Assembly: GCF_003226255.1 (NCBI RefSeq)
Contig: NZ_QJST01000002.1
Span: 186,001-250,000 of the forward strand
DNA: 64,000 nucleotides
Direction of reading: 5' to 3'
Source: Idiomarina fontislapidosi
Lineage (GTDB): Bacteria; Pseudomonadota; Gammaproteobacteria; Enterobacterales; Alteromonadaceae
Positions 60,944 to 64,000 of this stretch are shown in pieces. Every line of letters starts with the position of its first letter. The stretch's first letter is position 1. The notes beneath the pieces are model-generated. The model ran no database searches. It saw only the letters and a list, made by a program, of their open reading frames with translations, and was not told the origin of the DNA. The position numbers and the translations under genes are program-made.

Positions 60944-61678
60944 ATGTTCTATTTAAAACCACGCGAGGTGGTTAATACGGACGCTGACCGCGACTGGTCA
61001 CATGACTTTGCCGCGTGGGCTGATCGTGTTAACACACCGATGTTCAAAACTTACTTTGGACACGGCATGGTGAACAAAGAAACCTTAGTTAAGGACGCGC
61101 CGATGGTCGCCGTCGATTTCGAGACCACAGGGTTAGACTGCCAAAAAAACAGCATTGTCAGCATTGCCGCCGTGCCTATGACAGCACATCGTATTTTCCT
61201 GTCACAGGCACGTCAGTGGGTCGTCAAGCCGCGCCAAGATTTGACGGATGAATCGGTGGTTATTCATGGCATTACCCATTCGGACATTCAATCAGCGCCT
61301 GACTTAGAGGACATCCTACCTGAACTTCTTGAGTTGGTTGCTGAAAAGGTGTGGGTGGTACACTACAACGGTATTGAGCGCCCCTTTCTTCAGAAAGCCA
61401 TGGATGCCCGTTTTAACGAACATATTCACTTCCCAGTCATCGACACCATGGCGATCGAGGCGCGCTTTCATCGCCAACGCCGTTCGTTATGGTCACGATT
61501 AATGGGTAAACGTCCGTTATCGATTCGCTTAGCGGATAGCCGTGAACGGTATAACTTGCCATTTTATGCGCCCCACGATGCACTCACAGATGCCCTCGCC
61601 TGTGCTGAGCTTTTGCAAGCCCAAATACGATATCGGTACAGCCTCGACAGCCCGCTCACTGATATCTGGCTACCTTAG
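60944..61678 (+). CDS. DEDDh 3'-5' exonuclease (DnaQ-like)
   Basis: The 244-residue protein has ExoI VAVDFETTGLD (Asp and Glu), ExoII around VWVVHYNGIERPFL, and ExoIII HDALTDALACAELL (His and Asp), making a complete DEDDh active site. The N-terminal 50 residues (MFYLKPREVVNTD...) are specific to the type encoded next to cNMP-CBS-DUF294 proteins. Substrate is unknown: it may act on DNA or RNA. Operon with the preceding gene. Confidence 0.92.
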   Translation: MFYLKPREVVNTDADRDWSHDFAAWADRVNTPMFKTYFGHGMVNKETLVKDAPMVAVDFETTGLDCQKNSIVSIAAVPMTAHRIFLSQARQWVVKPRQDLTDESVVIHGITHSDIQSAPDLEDILPELLELVAEKVWVVHYNGIERPFLQKAMDARFNEHIHFPVIDTMAIEARFHRQRRSLWSRLMGKRPLSIRLADSRERYNLPFYAPHDALTDALACAELLQAQIRYRYSLDSPLTDIWLP

Positions 61679-61683
61679 CGCGG

Positions 61684-62943
61684 CTAAGCAGCACGCGAGG
61701 GAGGCGTCACAATGATATCTTCAATAATCTGCACATCATTTGTTCGGCTCACAGCGCGCTCTTGACGGTGCAACGGAAGTTGCGCCTGCACCGCCTTGGC
61801 GAGTGTCTCGTATTCGCTGAGCACCTGAAATAACCAAATCTCACCGGGCCAACTCAGCGCACTTTGGGCAAGGTAATCCAGTGCAGACTGCGGCTGTTGG
61901 CTTTGTGCAACATCAACAAAGAATTGGTCTACGTCCTGTTTTAATTGTCTTTGCTGAGTTTCGAGCACAGAATCGTGGGTAAATTCCGTCGCTTGTGCCG
62001 ACTCGCTTGAGGCTACGTCATCATTGCGTAAATGACGTGTTTGTTTTAGCGCTTCATGCAACGCTGTGAGTGTTTCTGACTGTGCTTGACGGTCATTCAC
62101 ATCAAGGTGCGCAGCGCCTTGAATAGCGCACGCTTGGTTGAATAAGTTCGGCACCTGGCTTTGCTCTGTGTAATCACTCACCTTAAGATCGGGGTGCTGA
62201 CGCAGAAACTGCGCCATATTACTCACTAACAAGCTACGCGACTGCTGCTCTCGAAAACGGCTCATCAACTCAATCATACGGTGCTGAATCTCGAGCATAC
62301 TCGCACGTTGCAAACTGGTACGGCGTTGCAGGTGAACGACGAGTAAGTGGCGCAGTTTGACGTGACCATCGGCAAGCGCAATGCACTCATCATAGTCAAT
62401 CATCGAGAGGCCATCTAGCAGACGTTCAATTTGATTCTGCGCACGCTGGTTTTCAGCCATTTTCTCATCAAGATTAGCAGCAAAACCAAAGTCCGTATTG
62501 AGGCGATTCCATAAACTATGAATCGCCTCATCGAATTCGGATACCAGATCATGCACTCGTTCTTCAATAATGTGCAGTTTAAGTTCACCGAGGTGCATAT
62601 CGCCAAGCCGCTGTGCTTTTCGAAATGCATCGACTTGTCCGCGAATAACTTCCAGTTTATCGGCCACATCAGCTTGAATCGAGCGTCTTCGCTCATCCAC
62701 TACAAGGCTTGCAATAAGCTGTGCTACCGGGGCTCTTAAACGATAACCCTGCCCGCTCTCAGGCTGATAGATAATCCGTGCATTCAACAAGTTGCGAAGC
62801 ACGCCCTCGTTAACCGCTAAGCTATCAAGTTCACCCGTTTGGTACGCGTGCATCAAGATACCGGCATGGCGCCCGATGAGGTTAAGCCGCTTTTCCCCTT
62901 GTTCGAGAAGCTGATCAGAAACGCTGAGTTGCTGCCCTACCAT
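61684..62943 (-). CDS. kleisin-like subunit of a Muk/Mks-type SMC complex
   Basis: The 419-residue protein is almost all alpha-helical with several coiled-coil segments (about 100-260 and 290-345). An N-terminal 90-residue winged-helix-like part (LIGRHAGILMHAYQTGELDS) precedes QVDAFRKAQRLGDMHLGELK. It is in the right place and size for a MukF/MksF-type kleisin. I cannot confirm homology by reading; the assignment depends mainly on its two neighbours. It is the last gene of the operon and begins directly at the stop of the upstream gene; the convergent exonuclease ends 5 bases away, with no hairpin seen. Confidence 0.55.
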   Translation of the reverse strand: MVGQQLSVSDQLLEQGEKRLNLIGRHAGILMHAYQTGELDSLAVNEGVLRNLLNARIIYQPESGQGYRLRAPVAQLIASLVVDERRRSIQADVADKLEVIRGQVDAFRKAQRLGDMHLGELKLHIIEERVHDLVSEFDEAIHSLWNRLNTDFGFAANLDEKMAENQRAQNQIERLLDGLSMIDYDECIALADGHVKLRHLLVVHLQRRTSLQRASMLEIQHRMIELMSRFREQQSRSLLVSNMAQFLRQHPDLKVSDYTEQSQVPNLFNQACAIQGAAHLDVNDRQAQSETLTALHEALKQTRHLRNDDVASSESAQATEFTHDSVLETQQRQLKQDVDQFFVDVAQSQQPQSALDYLAQSALSWPGEIWLFQVLSEYETLAKAVQAQLPLHRQERAVSRTNDVQIIEDIIVTPPSRAA

Positions 62944-63564
62944 TTACAGTAACGCCTCCTGCTCTGGATTTTCTTCAACGGGTAAGTTCTCTTCATCGCG
63001 AATAAAGCGGATCACGTCAATTAAGTAGTCTACTTTTCCGGTCACGATAAAATAGGGTCTATCGTGATGGGGTTGCATCAGGTACCCATGCTCGACCAAC
63101 CGTTTAGCAATTTGTTTTATTTGAGCATCAACGGTTTCTGCTTGAGAGTTAAAAAAGCGATCTTTGGCGAGGTGAGCCAAGCGCTGCTTTAAACTGGGAT
63201 TATCTTCACACGCCATGACCCACTCGGGCAGTTTCACTGTATCTCCTGGCACAAGGGTACTATCGTGACCCAAGGCTTCTTGAATCAGCGTAAGCCATTC
63301 CAATAAAGGCATCAACGTTGCCAATGTTTGCGTAAACTGTTGGCGCAAATGCTCACGGCCTTGCTTATCAAGGCGTTGGTAACTTAAAAAGAATACACTA
63401 CCATCCGCGACTTCACTGACGGTTCGATTCAACGGGCGCAAATAATCATTAATTTGGCTCTTCAGTGCCTCATCCTGAAGCTGTTGGTGATATTCAGGAA
63501 AGCGTTGTGCACAAATAAATTCACCATTGAGTAAGGCTTCGATAAGGGGACCATGCGTCATCAT
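62944..63564 (-). CDS. MukE/MksE-like small subunit of an SMC complex
   Basis: The 206-residue protein has features of the MukE/MksE winged-helix (KITE-like) subunit: GSVFFLSYQRLDKQGREHL, QIKQIAKRLVEHGYLMQPHH and DRPYFIVTGKVDYLIDVIRF. Its ATG is fused to the stop of the SMC gene (ATGA) and its stop abuts the next gene, so the three are translationally coupled. The call is by pattern, size and position. Confidence 0.6.
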   Translation of the reverse strand: MMTHGPLIEALLNGEFICAQRFPEYHQQLQDEALKSQINDYLRPLNRTVSEVADGSVFFLSYQRLDKQGREHLRQQFTQTLATLMPLLEWLTLIQEALGHDSTLVPGDTVKLPEWVMACEDNPSLKQRLAHLAKDRFFNSQAETVDAQIKQIAKRLVEHGYLMQPHHDRPYFIVTGKVDYLIDVIRFIRDEENLPVEENPEQEALL

Positions 63565-64000
63565 GCGCTATACTCCTTGTTAACGAGGTGTGCGAGCTTT
63601 TCTGAAAGACCTGAAGTCTTGGGTTGAATCCGTTTGAGTTGGCCTTTGCCCACCACGTTGGGGTGTGCTTCAATCAAATAGCGATGTTTAAACAGCATCA
63701 ACACATCGGATTCTGGGTTAGGAAACGCACCCACAATCTGGATTTGATTACTGTCACAGGCAGCAAATAGCTTTTCGACATTGTGATACGCCAAGGTTCC
63801 GATTTCATCAATAGGCCAGTGAAGAACAATCGCCTCGGCATCACTGCGTAACAGACGAGTAAACGCTAATAAAAACTTACACAGTATGAGGTAAGCCATT
63901 CCATGACTAGAGGATTCTGCCAACTGCCGATCATTACGTATGACTAACTCGTTGCCACCCTCAGTAAGGAATAGTTCAATTTTAAGCAGTGATTCGATAC
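63561..64000 (-). CDS. SMC-like ATPase, C-terminal head (5' part outside window)
   Basis: The frame is open to the window edge, so only the C-terminal 146 residues or so are seen. They show an ABC-type head: a signature region RQLAESSSHGMAYLILCKFL in place of LSGGE, a Walker B-like AIVLHWPIDEIG about 35 residues later, and a switch segment QIQIVGAFPNPESDVLMLFK. This arrangement fits SMC-type ATPases of the MukB/MksB/DUF3584 group rather than RecN or Rad50. Together with the two downstream genes it suggests a three-part loop-extruding or plasmid-defence complex; the upstream sequence would decide. Confidence 0.65.
   Translation of the reverse strand, partial: IESLLKIELFLTEGGNELVIRNDRQLAESSSHGMAYLILCKFLLAFTRLLRSDAEAIVLHWPIDEIGTLAYHNVEKLFAACDSNQIQIVGAFPNPESDVLMLFKHRYLIEAHPNVVGKGQLKRIQPKTSGLSEKLAHLVNKEYSA

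Follow-up and report, generated by a model that had tools for sequence, protein, structure and literature searches.

A DUF3584-type SMC-KITE-kleisin operon of Idiomarina fontislapidosi as a candidate auxiliary condensin related to nuclease-bearing, Wadjet-like systems

Introduction

Does the SMC-type operon that is cut off at the end of a 64,000-nucleotide stretch of Idiomarina fontislapidosi DNA encode a condensin or a plasmid-restriction system? The stretch (hereafter the window; G000:C2:186001-250000) lies on a 455 kb contig and carries the operon at its right edge. A preliminary description of the window had named both possibilities, a divergent condensin or a Wadjet-like anti-plasmid system. 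JetABC has been proposed to extrude DNA loops and thereby to trigger JetD on small circles, while the Pseudomonas aeruginosa MksBEF complex organises the chromosome and is probably a JetD-less derivative (PMC10586767, PMC7485682). An open proposal derives chromosome condensins from plasmid-cutting SMC systems through loss of their cutter (PMC10586767).

Here we find that the two possibilities are stages of one family, which has nuclease-bearing and nuclease-less members. Judged from its sequence, the operon at the window end is a complete SMC-kleisin-KITE set. We favour, as the probable reading, a complex of the MukBEF/MksBEF superfamily that derives from a four-gene Wadjet-like system minus its nuclease and now serves as an auxiliary condensin; its chromosomal role is inferred. 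Close relatives with and without the nuclease occur in one bacterial family and even in single genera (Idiomarina, Chromohalobacter), which makes the transition from defence to condensin directly testable. The operon is thus a good case for how a defence system may become a chromosome organiser, with the cutter lost and the motor intact.

Results and Discussion

The window ends inside the first gene of the operon. The C-terminal 145 residues of an SMC/MksB-like ATPase are encoded by an open reading frame at 63561..64000 on the minus strand. The contig extends beyond the window, and the adjoining stretch holds the remainder of the gene, which as a whole encodes 1242 residues (G000:C2:249561-253289, equal to L002:2561-6289, minus strand). 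The ABC signature ESSSHG (63900..63917, minus strand) and the Walker B motif with the catalytic glutamate, WPIDEIG (63798..63818, minus strand), are found where the preliminary description had placed them in an SMC head. Across 25 relatives ESSSHGM is kept, and the Asp and Glu of the Walker B motif are invariant. The Walker A motif and the coiled coils, which were to be sought upstream, are also present: GSNASGKT is located near the N-terminus, upstream of the window in transcription, and is followed by a long coiled-coil middle part. Walker A on one side and signature plus Walker B on the other thus lie at opposite ends of the coiled coil, as in SMC-type ATPases. Pfam DUF3584 (PF12128) matches the protein over its full length with an E-value of 4.7e-197. 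The same search gives no match to the MukB N-terminal domain (PF04310) or the MukB hinge (PF16330).

The second gene shares 4 bp with the SMC gene and encodes an MksE-like KITE subunit of 206 residues (62944..63564, minus strand), which is kept in relatives. It matches Pfam MksE (PF21980) with 30.7 bits against a curated cut-off of 27 (E 5e-07), in agreement with the MukE-type small subunit proposed earlier. The third gene abuts the second and encodes a putative kleisin subunit of 419 residues (61684..62943, minus strand), also kept in relatives and assigned by fold prediction. Transcription on the minus strand runs from SMC through KITE to kleisin. The end of the kleisin gene is separated by 5 bp from the stop of a convergent gene for a DEDDh exonuclease (60944-61678, plus strand). 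On the other side, between the SMC gene and the upstream 2-methylcitrate gene prpF, a hairpin with a run of T resembles a terminator, so that transcription of the operon probably starts from a promoter of its own. Translation of SMC more likely begins 13 codons past the first ATG, where the start has an RBS-like GAGGAA. Across the family the genes are mostly annotated as 'ATP-binding protein' and 'hypothetical protein'.

Sequence searches are of little help for the third protein. Pfam contains no family above threshold for it, and PHROGs and NCBIfam profiles return nothing useful for the operon proteins. Sequence and profile searches against the PDB give only coiled-coil noise for SMC and no informative match for KITE, kleisin or the nuclease of the relatives. 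For kleisin and nuclease, structure prediction was required. The AlphaFold model of the 419-residue protein, built from an alignment of 55 sequences (the window protein and relatives), has a pLDDT of 75. From its N-terminus it shows a winged helix with a helical bundle, then a linker modelled at low confidence and, at the C-terminus, a second winged helix; this predicted layout is that of a kleisin. In a Foldseek search of the PDB, MukF occupies ranks 1-6, with 3euh_A as the best match (probability 1.00, at a modest E-value of 3.7e-3). Alignment to MukF with VIA-align gives a Z-score of about 12 over 208-248 residues, a value that for a helical bundle is not decisive alone. MukE is the binding partner of MukF. 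The model points to a MukF-like kleisin, as the preliminary description had supposed, which would bind its MksE-like neighbour as MukF binds MukE.

The order of the three genes is the reverse of mukF-mukE-mukB and mksF-E-B, as was recognised earlier, and it is not peculiar to the window. SMC-KITE-kleisin is conserved in the order- and class-level relatives whose contigs span the operon. It also holds, with few exceptions, for 80 named genome contigs, including those of Idiomarina, Aliidiomarina, Halomonas, Rheinheimera, Arsukibacterium, Paraglaciecola and Oceanospirillum, the exceptions being contig ends and ORF-calling artefacts. A search with the MksE profile finds canonical mksFEB relatives, which run the opposite way. 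The F-E-B order is usual and not functionally required, with the window and its relatives arranged as B-E-F.

A comparison with known systems shows a mixture of features. Like P. aeruginosa MksBEF, the operon combines SMC, kleisin and KITE genes without a nuclease, matches Pfam MksE and coexists with SMC-ScpAB. Its gene order is however reversed. The SMC proteins also differ: the one canonical-order relative tested (L259), which stands in for P. aeruginosa MksB, has an SMC of 943 residues without a DUF3584 match, compared with 1242 residues and DUF3584 in the window. As for Escherichia coli MukBEF, the predicted fold of the operon's kleisin is closest to MukF, but the gene order is reversed, the SMC is about 240 residues shorter and the MukB N-terminal and hinge domains are not matched. 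SMC-ScpAB follows the same SMC-kleisin-KITE principle and is present in the same genome, but its genes for SMC (contig C11) and ScpB (contig C7) are at separate loci, and TIGR02168 gives the window SMC no more than a weak match, within the coiled coil.

The relatives also invite comparison with Wadjet. In most relatives a fourth gene of about 285 codons follows the kleisin gene, usually overlapping it, and its product matches Pfam DUF7281. JetD_C also hits this position, with scores over its cut-off for the congeneric genomes G004 and G006 and under it for G037. The protein has a conserved E-N...DxD TOPRIM pattern. Its predicted structure (pLDDT 90) aligns to MksG of Corynebacterium glutamicum with a Z-score of 11.1 (rmsd 3.3, 153 aligned residues), to Topo VI-A with 10.7 and to JetD of P. 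aeruginosa with 9.2. Because of these fold matches, the four-gene set is read as a putative Wadjet/MksBEFG-like anti-plasmid system. It shares the four subunit classes of JetABCD/MksBEFG (types I-III) and a TOPRIM nuclease that is closest in fold to MksG and JetD. In contrast to Wadjet, the order is C-B-A-D instead of A-B-C-D, the nuclease is compact (about 285 residues, DUF7281, against about 400), the window copy has no nuclease, and the DUF3584-type SMC matches the PADLOC profile of JetC1 with just 21 bits over about 43 residues around Walker A. KITE and kleisin have no match among the PADLOC JetA, JetB and JetC profiles of types I-III. The PADLOC models thus barely detect the set, and the family adds a defence-like system that they overlook.

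A nuclease partner, which the preliminary description expected outside the window, does exist in relatives, directly after the kleisin gene, but the window genome has no DUF7281 or JetD_C match anywhere and so does not have the TOPRIM nuclease of Wadjet. The genomes of its sister species (G009, G013, G018) likewise have no match to either profile. We examined 96 decidable loci by six-frame profile searches and contig-end checks, after removal of duplicates and contig ends; these are the best-matching loci and not a census. The fourth gene is present in 68 of them and absent in 28. On a tree of SMC heads, which is a quick tree with weak branches, the nuclease state changes 13 times, and these changes alone cannot separate loss from gain. 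All four of the deepest relatives have the nuclease. In L108, one of the 28, the match after the kleisin gene is confined to 156 bases of the nuclease frame, possibly the trace of a nuclease in decay. Since the deep relatives carry the nuclease and L108 keeps a degraded remnant, the pattern is most simply read as repeated loss from an ancestor with all four genes. The nuclease-less lineages retain nearly all residues that are conserved in nuclease-bearing complexes. Residues conserved with the nuclease and altered in many nuclease-less lineages would be candidates for its docking site, and none was convincing.

In the proposed course of events, the ancestor would have been a four-gene plasmid-restriction system in the order SMC-KITE-kleisin-TOPRIM nuclease. 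The nuclease would have been lost and the SMC dimer, kleisin and KITE retained. The remaining complex would still bind DNA and drive loop extrusion with ATP, like Wadjet and MukBEF, and without a cutter it may serve the chromosome as an auxiliary condensin, like MksBEF of P. aeruginosa.

The loss of the nuclease, together with the fragment left in L108, would also be expected if the operon were a decaying, functionless remnant of a defence system. However, the complex is under strong purifying selection without its nuclease. All three genes are open in all four nuclease-less species, with intact ATPase motifs. Among the three sister species dN/dS is 0.02-0.07 for SMC, KITE and kleisin wherever synonymous change is unsaturated. 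In comparisons with the window's own copy dS is saturated, and dN is only 0.05-0.15. Decay is strongly disfavoured because of this selection test, and we regard it as very improbable.

In the four Idiomarina-clade genomes with the nuclease-less form (the window genome and the three sisters), the operon is located at one site between prpF and the exonuclease gene. The constant neighbourhood would fit a replacement of the TOPRIM nuclease by the exonuclease as effector. But the exonuclease is encoded on the opposite strand, and in 13 further congeneric genomes the same two flanks enclose other genes instead of an mks operon. The exonuclease thus belongs to the site and not to the operon, in line with the preliminary description, which had kept the two apart, and we consider its role as a substitute effector extremely unlikely. 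The site is a variable island. In other Idiomarina species (L244-L256) the interval between prpF and the exonuclease holds genes for proteins of about 204, 327 or 660-680 residues, depending on the species.

The operon is present in 6 of the 19 genomes of the genus, in 4 of them without the nuclease. Two of the 13 genomes carry nuclease-bearing operons elsewhere, and their SMC proteins are 42-43% identical to that of the window. Patchy presence and a variable site fit an accessory function better than they fit a core condensin. They would also suit a complex of three genes that is still defensive, silencing or compacting small circular DNA without cutting it, or recruiting a host nuclease in trans. 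Smc5/6 acts on extrachromosomal viral DNA without cutting. The intact SMC motor, and relatives that reside on plasmids or next to a Tn7-like element, as defence genes do, point the same way. Against this, the genome encodes no JetD_C or DUF7281 protein, and no partner gene that could replace the nuclease is common to the neighbourhoods of the nuclease-less loci. A residual, non-cutting defence role is therefore doubtful in our judgement, and it is the main rival to the auxiliary condensin that we prefer.

Each part of the operon is of an already known kind. The MksBEF families were reportedly first described by Petrushenko in 2011, and several such families exist according to published papers; the DUF3584 family may be a rearranged version of one of these. 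The papers searched include none on DUF7281 or on a fourth type of Wadjet, and those listed for DUF3584 do not appear to concern an SMC-KITE-kleisin-DUF7281 system. We tentatively propose, as a possibility somewhat short of even, a fourth, uncatalogued Wadjet-like class with a DUF3584 SMC, an MksE-like KITE, a MukF-like kleisin and a compact DUF7281 nuclease in the order C-B-A-D, which would be found on chromosomes and plasmids, at a Tn7-linked locus and in a phage record. In this class, several independent losses of the nuclease would each have left behind an SMC motor that selection maintains and that has been put to use as a condensin.

Full four-gene sets are observed on plasmids of Acinetobacter (pACI-b25a, 40 kb; L279, 1073-7547), Vibrio vulnificus (L278, 4989-11408) and Aromatoleum (plasmid 1; L282, 5010-11434), where a plasmid-restriction-like system is carried by plasmids themselves; these sets are annotated as 'ATP-binding protein' and hypothetical proteins. 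A further four-gene set on the IncC conjugative plasmid pVIM-Exn692 of Enterobacter hormaechei (L280, 4828-13733) adjoins TnsD-type, Tn7-like transposition genes and a WYL regulator, and its SMC gene is broken by an IS256-like insertion. The 209 kb record of Dolichospermum phage Dfl-JY45 (PP438435.1; L281, 8022-14377) also has a full set; the phage may carry it as an anti-element system, or else bacterial DNA has contaminated the assembly. In L261 (3770-9259) a canonical F-E-B set is followed by a gene for a 287-residue DUF7281 nuclease, so the compact nuclease accompanies MksBEF of classical order too. Another arrangement of SMC and nuclease genes is found within the genus itself (L275, G016:C1, 2983-8145), with a gene for a JetD_C protein of 261 residues upstream of an SMC-like gene of 978 codons.
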